In this document: piece by piece, positions 32,165 to 44,309 of the stretch | Layout of the letters: each line of letters opens with the position of its first letter | Position numbering within the stretch: position 1 is the first letter of the stretch | Source of the DNA: Pseudomonas asiatica | GTDB taxonomy: Bacteria; Pseudomonadota; Gammaproteobacteria; Pseudomonadales; Pseudomonadaceae | DNA length: 64,000 nucleotides | Assembly: GCF_009932335.1 (NCBI RefSeq) | Contig: NZ_BLJF01000001.1 | Location: 4,094,501 to 4,158,500, forward strand | Direction of reading: 5' to 3' | The notes under the pieces: model-generated | What the model saw: the letters and a program-made list of their open reading frames with translations, nothing else | Told to the model about the DNA's origin: nothing | The model's database searches: none | Made by a program: the position numbers and the translations under genes

Positions 32165-32620
32165 TCAGGCCTTCAGTGCTTGAACAAGCTCAGCCAACCA
32201 AGGCTCTGCATCCGCCTCCGGAGTCACCGTCTCGCTGGCATCCAGGCGCAACATCGGTTGCACTTCGCGCACGCCCAGTTCGGCAAAAAGTTCGCGCATC
32301 TGCTCGCCACCACCGCAATAGGTATCGCCATAACTGCTGTCGCCCAAGGCAATCACCGCACCCGGCAGACCACGCCAGGCCGCAGGCAGGGTATCGCGAA
32401 TGCTGCAATACAACGGCATGAGGTTGTCCGGCAGTTCGCCCATGCCAGTGGTCGAGGTCACGGCCAGCAAGGCGTCGGGGGCGAAACCTTCAAGGTCCTG
32501 CAAGGTGGCGCGCGCCGCATGCCAGGCCTCCAGGCCCGCAGCCTTGAGCAGCGATTCAGCGTGACGGGCGACTTCTTCGGCGGTGCCGTAGACCGATCCG
32601 GAAATAATGGCGACTTTCAT
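32165..32620 (-). CDS. MioC-family flavodoxin
   Basis: 151 aa. The FMN phosphate loop is ISGSVYGTAEEVARHAE, the second loop STTGMGELPDNLMP and the third LGDSSYGDTYCGGGEQM. The MioC group carries electrons for biotin synthase and similar enzymes. Cytoplasmic. It lies convergent to the LysR gene across a REP pair and divergent from the LOV photoreceptor gene, 128 bases apart. Being a flavoprotein beside a flavin photosensor may be chance. Confidence 0.9.
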   Translation of the reverse strand: MKVAIISGSVYGTAEEVARHAESLLKAAGLEAWHAARATLQDLEGFAPDALLAVTSTTGMGELPDNLMPLYCSIRDTLPAAWRGLPGAVIALGDSSYGDTYCGGGEQMRELFAELGVREVQPMLRLDASETVTPEADAEPWLAELVQALKA

Positions 32621-32748
32621 CGGGTAGTGGATTCCGAAACTGAGTGAAAACGTAGGATACTAGCATCCGGCGCTGGCAAAAGGCCGCCTCTACCAAAGTC
32701 ACCATCCTAAGCCCTGCTTCGCACCCTTGTTTATTCAATGGCCCGAAC

Positions 32749-33177
32749 ATGATCAACGCGCAACTACTGCAATCCATGGTCGATGCGTCCAATGACGGCA
32801 TCGTGGTCGCCGAACAGGAAGGCGACGACACCATCCTCATCTACGTGAACGCGGCCTTCGAACGCCTGACCGGCTACAGCCGTGACGAAATCCTCTACCA
32901 GGATTGCCGCTTCCTGCAGGCCGACGACCGCGACCAGCTTGGCCGCGCCCGCATCCGCAAGGCCCTGGCCGAAGGCCGACCGTGCCGCGAAGTGCTGCGC
33001 AACTACCGCAAGGATGGCAGCGCTTTCTGGAACGAACTGTCGATCACCCCGGTAAGGCACGACGCCGAACAGCGCACCTACTTCATCGGTATCCAGAAAG
33101 ACGTCACTCGCCAGGTCGAACTGGAGCGGGAACTGGCGCAACTGCGCGTTCGTCGGAAACCCGACGAACGCACCTGA
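32749..33177 (+). CDS. Short LOV blue-light photoreceptor (PpSB1-LOV orthologue)
   Basis: 142 aa: a single LOV/PAS core (about 17-118) with short N-terminal and C-terminal helices and no effector domain. The photoactive Cys is residue 53 in YQDCRFLQADD. FMN contacts seen at the expected places are Arg61, Arg66, Asn85, Asn95 and Gln116. The C-terminal helix QVELERELAQLRVRRKPDER forms the dimer coiled coil. It is nearly identical to P. putida PpSB1-LOV, known for a very slow dark recovery. In KT2440 this protein is reported to be needed, with LitR-type regulators, for light-induced transcription. The regulator gene lies two genes on. Confidence 0.95.
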   Translation: MINAQLLQSMVDASNDGIVVAEQEGDDTILIYVNAAFERLTGYSRDEILYQDCRFLQADDRDQLGRARIRKALAEGRPCREVLRNYRKDGSAFWNELSITPVRHDAEQRTYFIGIQKDVTRQVELERELAQLRVRRKPDERT

Positions 33178-33233
33178 ACCAAGTACGCCACGCACGGTCA
33201 ATCCCGTTGAAGAAATCGCCATCGAGTTCGATC

Positions 33234-33851
33234 ATGCAAGCAGAAGCGCTCCTGACCCAGGACGAGCTGGATTTCATACAGAACATGCAGCATTCGCCGC
33301 AGTTGAACCTGGCCGACCCCATGTCGAGCCTGCTGGTCAATGGCGACCGCCGCATCCAGAGCTTGCTCACCCGCTTGGTGGCCAACGAGCAGGTAACCCT
33401 GCAGGCCCAGTTCAACAACCAGCAAATCAGCTTCCCGCTGCAACTGGTGGAAGACGAGTTCCACGCCCTGCACCTGCAACTGGGCTCACCGGAAATCTAC
33501 GAGGACGGCCCCATGCTGCGCCCCTGGCGCCTGTCGATGGAGAAGCCGAGCGCACTGCTCGATGCCCATGGGCAGGAAACTGGCCTGTGGGTTCGCGAGA
33601 TCTCGTTCAAGGGTACATTGCTGGAAGTCCGTGGCCTGCCAGCGGCACCAGCCCACTTCGAATTGCGCTTCGCCCCTGATGGCATCCCCCCCATCGAACT
33701 GCATGGCGTGCTGGGCCGGCGCATCGGCCCGGACCTGGCAGCCTACGACCTCAGCCAAAGCCCGGCCGAAGAGATCGAACGCCTGCGCGACTACATCCTC
33801 CAGGCCCATCGCCGGGCCCACCCCGAGCTACACACTCAGGTATCGAACTGA
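33234..33851 (+). CDS. Unknown protein, PilZ-like C-terminal part, next to the LOV gene
   Basis: 205 aa from the ATG at 33234, 56 bases after the LOV stop and probably co-transcribed. No signal peptide or membrane segment. Residues 1-30 (LLTQDELDFIQNMQHSPQLN) form a helix, then a mostly beta region. Around residue 120 is LWVREISFKGTLLEV, resembling the second PilZ motif (D/N-x-S-x-x-G), but the first Arg-rich PilZ motif is not recognisable. The C terminus is a helix EEIERLRDYILQAHRRAHPE. Its end overlaps the convergent MerR gene by 16 bases. Could be a YcgR-like or degenerate PilZ protein; function not known. Confidence 0.75.
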   Translation: MQAEALLTQDELDFIQNMQHSPQLNLADPMSSLLVNGDRRIQSLLTRLVANEQVTLQAQFNNQQISFPLQLVEDEFHALHLQLGSPEIYEDGPMLRPWRLSMEKPSALLDAHGQETGLWVREISFKGTLLEVRGLPAAPAHFELRFAPDGIPPIELHGVLGRRIGPDLAAYDLSQSPAEEIERLRDYILQAHRRAHPELHTQVSN

Positions 33852-34768
33852 CCGGCCAGAAACTGCCGCAAACGCTGGCGCATCACGCTACCCTGCGCAC
33901 CCAGGCAAGCGATCGGGCTGCCAGCCAGGCTGTCCTGTGCCAGTTCCGCCGCTTCACCCGCCAGTAACAACGGGCACTCCAGCCCAGCCACCAGGCGCGT
34001 CAGCCGCCGTGTGAGCTCCGTCGTGGGCGGCTGATGGGAAAACAGCACCAGGGCATCCGGTTTCAGGCGTTCGCAGACCAGTGCCAGTTCTGCCAGCGGC
34101 TGCGCGCTCGCCAGTGGCGTCACGCCAACTTCATCGCAGCCCAAGGTCAGGCTGGTCACCAGCAAATCCAACTCGTGGCACTGCCCCGGCAATGGCGCCA
34201 GCAGCACCATGCGGCTGCGCGGCGCGCGGGCGAGTTGCAAGCGGGTATACACCCGGCCACGCAGGAACTGATCGAGGAACAGCCACTCGCTGGCCTGCCC
34301 GTAGCCGCCCTGACCGGCCGCCAGGTCATGCCACACAGGCATGAACACTTCACTGAATACCTGGTCCAGGGTGCAGGCGGCAAATACCTCGTCGAACAGG
34401 CGGTCCAGGCCGACAAGGTCAAAACGTTGTAACGCCTGGCGAATTTGCTGCTGCCAGCGCCCCCATGCGCCAGTCGCGACACCTGCCTGCCCGGCACGGG
34501 CATGGTCGCGCGCGAGGATGCTGGCAACCTTGCTTACCGCAACGCCGCGCTCCAGCCAGCCAAGGATGCGGCGGATGTCATCGATGTCGGCCTGGGAATA
34601 CAGGCGGTGGCCGCTGTCGGTGCGGGTAGGCTGGATCAGACCGTGGCGGCGCTCCCAGGCGCGCAAGGTCACGGCATTGACGCCAGTCAGGCGGGAAACC
34701 TCACGGATCGGAAACAGGTCCTGCGCGAGGCCCGCATCGATTACCGGATTCAGTCCCTGTTCGTTCAT
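33836..34768 (-). CDS. MerR-family regulator of the LitR/CarH type, class II (PplR3-like)
   Basis: 310 aa from the ATG at 34768; the frame is open 24 codons further but the family begins near here. The winged HTH (FPIREVSRLTGVNAVTLRAW, then ERRHGLIQPTRTDSGHRLYS) is canonical. The C-terminal 190 residues have the helical plus Rossmann B12-domain shape, but the cobalamin motifs are altered: SEWLFLD stands where class I proteins have an E-H pair, and the ligand segment is PGQCHELD rather than x-H-x-x-G. This fits class II LitR proteins, which depend on LOV photoreceptors instead of adenosylcobalamin. Lies beside the short LOV gene, as pplR3 does in KT2440. Confidence 0.88.
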   Translation of the reverse strand: MNEQGLNPVIDAGLAQDLFPIREVSRLTGVNAVTLRAWERRHGLIQPTRTDSGHRLYSQADIDDIRRILGWLERGVAVSKVASILARDHARAGQAGVATGAWGRWQQQIRQALQRFDLVGLDRLFDEVFAACTLDQVFSEVFMPVWHDLAAGQGGYGQASEWLFLDQFLRGRVYTRLQLARAPRSRMVLLAPLPGQCHELDLLVTSLTLGCDEVGVTPLASAQPLAELALVCERLKPDALVLFSHQPPTTELTRRLTRLVAGLECPLLLAGEAAELAQDSLAGSPIACLGAQGSVMRQRLRQFLAGQFDT

Positions 34769-34987
34769 CTGCACGGGGTTCCCTGTGTGTCCAAGTTGAA
34801 CACCTAGTCTACTACGGCAATACCAGGCGCTGGGGCGCAACCGTTTGCCGGCTTACAGTTGCCGAAGATCGCAGATGGGCGATAATCCGCGCCCGATTCT
34901 TGCATGCATGCCTGTGTCGCCCACCACCCCGGGCCACTCAGCCAAAGGGGCCGGCTACCCGCCAGCCCCGTTGCCAGGAGATACACG

Positions 34988-35548
34988 ATGTCTACCCCAC
35001 CCGTCACCTTGATGGTGTCGCGCCGCGCCGCCCATGGCCGCTACCAGGACCTGCTGGCCTGGCTGCATGAAGGCGAGCAGCTGGCCACCGACTTCCCCGG
35101 CTACCTTGGCTCGGGCATCCTCGCGCCACCCCGCGACAGCGACGAATTCCAGATCATCTTTCGTTTCAGCGACGAGCCGACTCTGCATGCCTGGGAACAT
35201 TCCGCCTCGCGTCGGGCCTGGTTGCAACGCGGCAACGGCCTTTTCGAACGCCCCAAGGAAGCGCGCGTGAGCGGCATCGACGACTGGTTTGGCACCAACA
35301 TGGTGCAAAAACCACCACGCTGGAAGCAGGCTGTGGCCATCTGGCTGGCCTTCTTCCCGGTCTCGCTGGTGTTCAACCTGGTGTTCGGCCACTGGCTCGC
35401 TGCGCTGGACCTGGTACCACGGGTATTGCTCAGCACCCTGGGCCTGACGCCGGTGATGGTCTACCTGTTCATCCCCCTGTCCACCCGTCTGCTGGCCGGC
35501 TGGCTGCATGCGTCCCCCGCCCCTGCCGGCGCCCTGCGCAGCCGCTGA
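34988..35548 (+). CDS. Antibiotic-biosynthesis-monooxygenase-like protein with C-terminal membrane helices
   Basis: 186 aa from the ATG at 34988, preceded by CAGGAGA. Residues 5-100 are an ABM ferredoxin-like domain (PVTLMVSRRAAHGRYQDLLA, then EFQIIFRFSDEPTLHAWEHS). Two membrane helices follow (about 117-140 and 146-168), so the domain is tethered to the inner membrane. ABM domains act as small monooxygenases or heme-degrading-type folds; no catalytic residues can be assigned. Divergent from the LitR-type regulator, 219 bases between starts, so it is a candidate target of light control. Confidence 0.83.
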   Translation: MSTPPVTLMVSRRAAHGRYQDLLAWLHEGEQLATDFPGYLGSGILAPPRDSDEFQIIFRFSDEPTLHAWEHSASRRAWLQRGNGLFERPKEARVSGIDDWFGTNMVQKPPRWKQAVAIWLAFFPVSLVFNLVFGHWLAALDLVPRVLLSTLGLTPVMVYLFIPLSTRLLAGWLHASPAPAGALRSR

Positions 35549-35611
35549 GGCCAGGCCGTACACGCGGTAGACAGTTCGGGTATGCTGGGCGGCAACCAAA
35601 GGACAGACAAG

Positions 35612-36319
35612 TTGACCGCCCCGAACATGAACAGCCCCATTCTCGTTACCGGAGCCAGCCAGCGCGTCGGGCTGGCCCTGGCCCTTGAACTGGCGCAGGC
35701 CGGCCATACGGTGGTCAGTGCCAGCCGCAGCGTCCAGCCACAAGCGGCTCACCCGAACATCGTGCAGTTCCAGGCTGACCTGTGCCAGCTGGCCGATCGA
35801 CAGGCCCTGATCGACTACTTGCACAACCATTACGACGGCCTGCGCGCGATCATCCACAACGCCTCGTTGTGGCTCGACGATGGCCTCGACAACCTCGAGA
35901 CCATGTTCCGCCTTCACGTCGAAGCGCCCTACCACCTCAACCTGGCCTTGGGCGACCTGCTGGCCAAGGTGGAAAAGGCCGACATCATCCACATTTGCGA
36001 CGAAACCTCTTCGCGCGGCAGCAAAAGCCACATCGGCTACGCCGCGACCAAGGCCGCGTTGCAGAACATGGTGCTGTCTTTCGCCGAAAAATATGCGCCC
36101 AAGGTGCGTGTGAACGGTATCCTGCCCGGGCTGCTGATCCTCAAGGAAGGGGGTGACGAAACCTACCGCCAGCAGACCCTGAAAAAGGCCCTGCTGGAGT
36201 TCGAACCCGGCGCCGGCCCGCTGATCGAGACGGTCAAGTACCTGCTCGCCAGCCAGTACAGCACCGGCAGCCAGGTGGTCATCAACGGTGGCCGCCACCT
36301 GAAGAACCGCATGACCTGA
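35612..36319 (+). CDS. folM: Dihydromonapterin reductase (FolM-type SDR)
   Basis: 235 aa if it starts at TTG 35612, which has AAGGA eight bases upstream; an ATG at 35627 (MNSPILVT) is the alternative. SDR core with VTGASQRVGLALALELAQ, HNASLWLDDGL and a catalytic YAATKAAL. The GASQRVG loop with Arg is the pteridine-reductase signature. It reduces dihydromonapterin to tetrahydromonapterin, the phenylalanine hydroxylase cofactor in Pseudomonas, which links it to the Tyr/homogentisate route nearby. First of a tight folM-DUF1244-HopJ run. Confidence 0.87.
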   Translation: MTAPNMNSPILVTGASQRVGLALALELAQAGHTVVSASRSVQPQAAHPNIVQFQADLCQLADRQALIDYLHNHYDGLRAIIHNASLWLDDGLDNLETMFRLHVEAPYHLNLALGDLLAKVEKADIIHICDETSSRGSKSHIGYAATKAALQNMVLSFAEKYAPKVRVNGILPGLLILKEGGDETYRQQTLKKALLEFEPGAGPLIETVKYLLASQYSTGSQVVINGGRHLKNRMT

Positions 36320-36328
36320 GAGAAGCCC

Positions 36329-36625
36329 ATGACCCCACAGCAACAGCTCGAACTCGAGGCCGCCGCGTTCCGGCGCCTGGTCGAACACCTGCAGAAGCGC
36401 ACCGACGTGCAGAACATCGACCTGATGAACCTGTCCGGCTTCTGCCGCAACTGCCTGTCCAAGTGGTACAAGGCCGCGGCTGACGAGCGCCAGCTCGACC
36501 TGAGCCTGGATGACGCCCGCGAAGCGGTGTACGGCATGCCTTACGCCGAGTGGAAAGCCCAATACCAGAAAGAAGCCAGCGCCGACCAACAAGCGGCGTT
36601 CGAAAAAGGAAAACCTCGTGACTGA
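36329..36625 (+). CDS. DUF1244 small protein
   Basis: 98 aa. The DUF1244 core FRRLVEHLQKRTDVQNIDLM is followed by NLSGFCRNCLSKWYKAAADE, with a CxxC pair that may bind metal or form a disulfide, and then YGMPYAEWKAQYQKEAS. Nine bases after folM and overlapping the HopJ start by 8 bases. Conserved small cytoplasmic protein of unknown function. Confidence 0.92.
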   Translation: MTPQQQLELEAAAFRRLVEHLQKRTDVQNIDLMNLSGFCRNCLSKWYKAAADERQLDLSLDDAREAVYGMPYAEWKAQYQKEASADQQAAFEKGKPRD

Positions 36626-36959
36626 CCTGAACACCCTGCGCGCCAGCCTGGCCAGCGGCCAACACGTGTTTGCCGACACCCTGGCGTTCATTGCCGACAA
36701 CTACAGCTACCAGCCACAGGCCTTCGACAATGGCGGCGTGGCGAATGCAGCCGGGCAGAACGAAGGTTCGTGCAAGACCCTGGGCCTGGCGCTGCTGGAA
36801 GGGCTGAGCGACCAGGAAGCGCTGCTGGCCTTTGGCGAGCACTACCGTGACGTGGTGGCCACGCCCGAGGGCAGCGACCATGGCAATATCCGTGCGCTGA
36901 TCAAGCATGGGCTGGCGGGCGTCAAGTTCGCCGAGCTGCCGCTTGCGCGCAAGGCTTGA
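36618..36959 (+). CDS. HopJ-family protein
   Basis: 113 aa from the GTG at 36618, inside the last codons of DUF1244. Conserved FADTLAFIADNYSYQPQAFD and NEGSCKTLGLALLEGLSDQE, FGEHYRDVVATPEGSDHGNI. The family is named after a proposed type III effector, but it is common in free-living bacteria with no secretion system nearby, so an effector role is unlikely here. Third gene of the folM run; ends at a class d REP pair. Confidence 0.9.
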   Translation: MTDLNTLRASLASGQHVFADTLAFIADNYSYQPQAFDNGGVANAAGQNEGSCKTLGLALLEGLSDQEALLAFGEHYRDVVATPEGSDHGNIRALIKHGLAGVKFAELPLARKA

Positions 36960-44250: not shown

Positions 44251-44309
44251 ATCTTGAGACAAACTCATTAAATTTGATATGAACTCAAGATTTATTCATG
44301 TTCGTGAAT
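44251..44309. promoter_or_regulatory. Inverted repeats upstream of metE
   Basis: ATCTTGAG (44251-44258) is mirrored by CTCAAGAT (44284-44291). Next to it ATTCA (44294-44298) is mirrored by TGAAT (44305-44309) around TGTTCG. MetR-type sites are TGAA-N5-TTCA, so the second element is similar but inverted in order. AT-rich promoter zone; regulator not certain. Confidence 0.4.

Follow-up and report, generated by a model that had tools for sequence, protein, structure and literature searches.

A short LOV photoreceptor and a LitR-type regulator flank the gene for a predicted PilZ-fold protein in Pseudomonas asiatica

The window, by which we mean the whole stretch of 64,000 nucleotides of Pseudomonas asiatica DNA that was analysed, contains three adjacent genes between positions 32749 and 34768. 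All three frames are open, which confirms the three-gene reading of the original prediction. The gene for a short LOV blue-light photoreceptor (32749–33177, plus strand; 142 amino acids) is separated by 56 bases from a second gene on the same strand (33234–33851; 205 amino acids), designated here the middle gene. The gene for a LitR/CarH-type MerR regulator (33836–34768, minus strand; 310 amino acids) is convergent with these two, as had been predicted, and its 3′ end overlaps that of the middle gene by 16 bases. A flavodoxin gene lies upstream (32165–32620, minus strand; NF004343 above its cut-off), and genes for ABM-like, FolM (dihydromonapterin reductase), DUF1244, and HopJ-family proteins follow downstream (34988–36959, plus strand). 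Scans of positions 32550–35000 revealed one promoter site (0.5 expected) and three terminator sites (1.9 expected). In loci L049 and L066, approximately 2 kb of extra sequence separates the middle gene from the MerR gene.

The LOV protein retains the cysteine required for adduct formation, Cys53, which sits in the sequence YQDCRFLQ and is accompanied by R61 and R66. Arginines of the R61/R66 type go with slow dark recovery of LOV proteins. The protein gives PAS matches and comprises a LOV/PAS domain with no effector domain. Its best sequence matches in the PDB are two chains designated "Sensory box protein", 29lw (E = 2.3e-83) and 3sw1 (E = 3.8e-83), the latter of which we take to be PpSB1-LOV of P. 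putida; chains of the short LOV type match the window protein over nearly full length. The same genome contains a second short LOV gene (L064, approximately 8431–7988, minus strand; C1:1625430–1624987) that encodes H61 and L66. This gene carries a TAG in frame, at approximately codon 105, ahead of the last part of the domain, and the frame is open beyond it. The LOV protein in the window may be the strain's only intact short LOV protein, or the TAG in the second gene may be a sequence error.

Alignment of the MerR protein with Thermus CarH extends over residues 15–244 and bears out the claim that its cobalamin motifs are altered. SEW at residue 160 lies over EEH of CarH, such that EH becomes EW, and QCHELD at residue 196 lies over ERHEIG, with the histidine kept and the E and G different. 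Pfam identified a MerR HTH domain (PF13411; E = 5.5e-16). B12-binding_2 appears as no more than a trace that falls below the cut-off (E = 0.08), and a B12-binding Rossmann domain was not listed among Pfam matches with E up to 0.1. Class II LitR proteins keep the MerR HTH and, of the B12-related domains, the 4-helix B12-binding_2 domain alone. In NCBIfam, the protein matches CarH (2.8e-30) and MlrA (1.2e-23) best, both with scores well below the curated cut-offs. The protein shares the MerR DNA-binding domain with class I LitR/CarH, the photoreceptor-repressors that use AdoB12, but differs from them in both motifs and in having no B12-binding Pfam domain above cut-off. The altered motifs in the CarH alignment do not favour B12-based sensing by this regulator.

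The middle protein is predicted to have a PilZ fold. This assignment is based on the fold model and its PDB matches, on a Pfam match to PF07238 in 7 of 18 relatives, and on database names. PF07238 is precomputed for 6 of 120 listed homologues and is not found in the window protein, for which Pfam and NCBIfam listed nothing with E up to 0.1. No PDB sequence matched the family profile at better than E = 0.14, and hhalign gave no significant match between the family and three PilZ proteins encoded in the same genome as the window. The N-terminal part of the protein is barely covered in the fold comparison. When this part was checked for a YcgR-type N-terminal domain, residues 55–90 were predicted to form strands, within a region (residues 31–100) that has a pLDDT of approximately 51–74 and is covered by few rows.

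Two motifs set the middle protein apart. RPWR (codons 96–99; 33519–33530, plus strand) is located where PilZ proteins have RxxxR. The residues R96, W98, and R99 are present in 183 of 183 sequences of the family, so that RxWR, with a spacing of three, stands in every member and the canonical c-di-GMP-receptor motif RxxxR in none. EISFKG (codons 122–127; 33597–33614, plus strand) corresponds to the [D/N]xSxxG motif of PilZ proteins. Position 122 is E in 97 of the 183 sequences, including the window protein, and D in 80; the serine and glycine of this [E/D]xSxxG motif are found in 180 and 179 sequences, respectively. Compared with the PilZ proteins YcgR, MotI/DgrA, MapZ, and MrkH, to which it is 9–17% identical, the middle protein differs in having RxWR rather than RxxxR, E or D before xSxxG, and a FliM-like peptide at its N-terminus. 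Our literature search returned no paper that assigns a function to the middle gene and none that combines PilZ, "short LOV", and Pseudomonas. An unnamed gene that occurs in nearly every searched genome of the genus can now be described as encoding a specific PilZ-type protein, as predicted from its fold, with two odd features.

The N-terminal peptide is a predicted helix, LLTQDELDFIQN (codons 6–17; 33249–33284, plus strand), that resembles the CheY-docking peptide of FliM in similarity only. The start of the middle protein, MQAEALLTQDELDFIQNM, is much like the start of FliM from the same genome, MAVQDLLSQDEIDALLHG. LLTQDELDFI in the middle protein corresponds to LLSQDEIDALL in FliM, both at the N-terminus, but FI replaces ALL and the remainder of the protein is unrelated to FliM. 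FliM and FliY use an EIDALL motif to bind phosphorylated CheY (PMC9126983). The equivalent sequences are ELDFIQ in the window and EIDFIQ in L069, both of which are missing the ALL part. Within the middle-protein family, E11 is found in 183 of 183 sequences and L7 in 182. We counted the pattern L[ST]xxE[ILM][DE] among 615 ORFs of at least 120 amino acids from the window and 40 loci, a greedily chosen set that includes some ORFs that are not real genes and does not include FliM. The pattern occurs within the first 26 residues 21 times; 19 of these occurrences fit the middle-protein family pattern, and the remaining two, in L050 and L069, occupy the position of the middle gene. Patterns of this type are also common helix caps, and the likeness of the N-terminus to a FliM docking helix is therefore a lead only. 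The middle protein probably acts as a PilZ-type adaptor, in which a PilZ barrel with a changed motif would be joined to a short N-terminal docking helix.

The arrangement of the three genes is not due to chance, since they are found together in 50 of 69 genomes of the same genus and in 59 of 80 named loci. The middle gene is present in 168 of 298 genomes of the family and in 102 of 103 same-genus genomes (rows counted by hand). The sole exception, G286, has no MerR match at 1e-12 and contains a LOV domain only within a 1301-amino-acid frame. Of these 102 genomes, the first 80 in order of handle were searched for short LOV (E ≤ 1e-40) and LitR (E ≤ 1e-50) proteins. Both were found in 71 genomes, LitR only in one, LOV only in none, and neither in eight, a class that may hold more distant LitR proteins given that G014, G102, G167, G209, and G214 have one at 31–38% identity. 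This co-occurrence (Fisher 3e-10, kinship ignored) upholds the earlier view that the LOV and LitR-type proteins belong together.

The place of the middle gene is listed for 69 of the 80 genomes; in the other 11, the LOV and MerR genes are 726–2925 bases apart. Besides the 50 genomes that have all three genes together, the 69 comprise five in which LOV adjoins the middle gene and LitR lies elsewhere, five in which LOV and LitR lie together elsewhere (130–162 bases apart), one in which LitR adjoins the middle gene and LOV was not found, and eight in which neither was found at these cut-offs. In locus L036 (G265:C19), LitR and the middle gene are side by side and the genome gives no LOV match at 1e-20; G265 may be a natural LOV-less strain. 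Nine genomes of other genera were picked because their middle-gene locus is without the pair. Eight of them (G010, G015, G016, G032, G039, G160, G168, and G227) encode a short LOV and a LitR protein (54–58% identity) together elsewhere, with a spacing of approximately 55–225 bases in six; the two genes are approximately 2.0 kb apart in G160 and 4.3 kb apart in G168. In the ninth, G124, which does carry the middle gene, searches for LOV (at 1e-20) and MerR (at 1e-12) gave no match. Among the named loci, which are the best 80 of 412 and, having been brought in by the middle gene, are close relatives, 59 have both neighbours, 17 have neither, three have MerR only, and one has LOV only. The flavodoxin gene adjoins the middle gene both with and without the light pair, and the genome of the window carries a second LOV/LitR locus and a single copy of the middle gene. 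The expectation that all three genes would co-occur across Pseudomonas thus holds for most genomes, but the pair and the middle gene are separable in both directions.

The systems closest to the locus are the PmSB-LOV/PmlR2 cluster of Pseudomonas mendocina NBRC 14162 and PpSB-LOV/PplR of P. putida KT2440. All share with the window a short LOV protein with Cys53, a LitR-type MerR gene, putatively of class II in the window, and one gene between the two, near folM. The original prediction described the path of the signal from LOV to MerR as unexplained; for P. mendocina, direct binding had already been published (PMC9758184). In that report, PmSB-LOV in its lit state binds PmlR2 at the N-terminal domain and inhibits the binding of PmlR2 to DNA as judged by surface plasmon resonance, whereas the C53A variant does neither (PMC9758184). 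Transcription was restored in vitro with only LOV, the MerR protein, DNA, and RNA polymerase (PMC9758184). Two further results of the same study count against this explanation: the two-hybrid interaction of LOV and MerR was present in the dark as well as in light, and gel shifts gave a super-shift rather than a loss of binding (PMC9758184). The three-gene cluster is called conserved in Pseudomonas, and the gene between the P. mendocina LOV and MerR genes, PME15565, which from gene order would be the homologue of the middle gene, is named once in the available part of the paper, as conserved and with no function given (PMC9758184).

We estimate at roughly 80% the probability that the locus belongs to the PmSB-LOV/PmlR2 kind of Pseudomonas blue-light switch and that the middle gene has its own job. 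The light switch itself is already known, and the window provides another instance of it. According to this model, the LitR-type repressor (34768–33836) would keep light-inducible promoters shut in the dark. Blue light would cause a Cys53-FMN adduct to form in the short LOV protein (32749–33177), and the lit LOV protein would then bind directly to the N-terminal domain of the repressor and take it off DNA, with no carrier needed between the two. LOV very probably releases the flanking repressor, and by analogy with P. mendocina we infer that the same LOV-MerR chemistry operates in this strain. In this model, the middle gene belongs to the flavodoxin-folM locus, around which the LOV and LitR genes are in most cases either both there or both missing.

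The original prediction put the middle gene forward as an obvious candidate for the link that relays the signal from LOV to MerR. Gene order is consistent with such a relay, and with the middle gene in nearly every genome of the genus, the protein is available wherever the pair is. However, the published in vitro system works without the middle protein (PMC9758184), the pair lies elsewhere with no middle gene between in eight other-genus and five same-genus genomes, and the middle gene is retained in genomes that gave no pair (8 of 80 genomes, and G124), which argues that it is not an obligate link. On the strength of this separability and of the reconstitution in P. mendocina (PMC9758184), we reject an obligate relay as highly improbable. 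The middle gene appears dispensable for the light switch. The comparison thereby tells which genes of a conserved Pseudomonas light locus form the switch, among which the middle gene is not a required relay.

Codon analysis, in which only pairs with dS of 0.15–0.9 were counted, bears on the same point. The median omega of the middle gene is 0.196 with the local pair (51 sequences; 8 of the 59 both-neighbour loci were left out because of a stop codon within the aligned stretch) and 0.184 without it (17 sequences). Omega of flavodoxin is 0.087 with and 0.086 without the pair; the loci used were 52 of 59 and 16 of 17 for FolM, and 52 of 59 and 14 of 17 for ABM. Loci without the pair may have a LOV/LitR pair elsewhere, as do G200, G242, G246, G255, and G270, which have another pair and are without the local one, and the test therefore argues against dependence on the local pair only. 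A tree of flavodoxin, the middle gene, DUF1244, and FolM, made by a quick method with single-neighbour rows left out, implies at least five switches between both and neither. Partial distance correlations in a mirror-tree comparison of 51 loci are 0.64 for LOV and the middle protein, 0.43 for the middle protein and MerR, and 0.23 for LOV and MerR. At face value, these values go against the preferred switch; we draw no conclusion from them because neighbouring genes share their history.

The higher correlations with the middle protein than between LOV and MerR would fit better if the middle protein were a non-obligate third component of the light module that serves as a PilZ-type output or a second input, a reading that we consider unlikely. 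The LOV and middle genes would be read together, and the protein would couple blue light to c-di-GMP or motility or feed c-di-GMP into the LitR-type regulator. The common strand and the short gap between these genes agree with this arrangement, as do the 5 of 69 genomes in which the MerR gene is elsewhere and LOV still adjoins the middle gene, the predicted PilZ fold, and the appearance of MlrA, although below cut-off, among the NCBIfam matches of the MerR protein. MlrA of Escherichia coli, a relative of the MerR protein, is controlled by c-di-GMP enzymes. Presumably PpSB1-LOV is PP_4629, and we infer from this that PP_4630 is the KT2440 counterpart of the MerR protein in the window. A c-di-GMP colony screen that hit PP_4630 also speaks for a further role: a transposon in this MerR-family gene removed three c-di-GMP phenotypes of KT2440 (crinkly colony, flocculation, and extra biofilm) that additional copies of the diguanylate cyclase gene rup4959 bring about (PMC4951495). 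The initial isolation had yielded about eighty clones from some fifteen thousand, and PP_4630 is represented by one mutant (PMC4951495). Against membership in the light module, the middle gene persists under similar constraint where the pair is absent, canonical RxxxR is absent, and the literature search found no paper that ties the gene to light. It is tempting to speculate that the LOV/LitR locus is a two-output switch, in which a post-translational branch stands beside the known transcriptional one: a LOV-linked PilZ-fold protein docks a CheY-like receiver through its FliM-like peptide and, with its changed nucleotide motif, allows blue light to converge with c-di-GMP, either at the flagellum or on the LitR-type regulator, but we regard this extension as doubtful. 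If light or chemotaxis were coupled to c-di-GMP in this manner, two signalling systems would be joined at one locus. A second branch through the middle protein, to c-di-GMP or motility, may exist.

The window differs from the P. mendocina cluster with respect to operators. A TGTACA-type operator is named before folM in P. mendocina (PMC9758184), whereas in the window the scan returned only a single site with two mismatches, at 44293, which is at chance level. Across the genome of the window, operators of the TGTACA-N12-TGTACA type with at most one mismatch occur at 17 places, compared with five for a control pattern. Operators of the TGTACA-N12-TGTA type at C1:1624901–1624975 (L064) lie just before a row of minus-strand genes beside the second LOV gene, which by eye encode SnoaL-like, SDR, amine oxidase, and cyclopropane synthase-like proteins. 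Others of this type, at C1:61095–62237 (L065), are near a cluster that contains a photolyase and a third LitR-type gene (names by eye). A perfect TGTACA-N12-TGTACA site at C2:511377–511400 (L117, approximately 1501–1524) is located approximately 74 bases upstream of a gene judged by eye to encode a receiver-LuxR response regulator, which is possibly a further light-controlled regulator.
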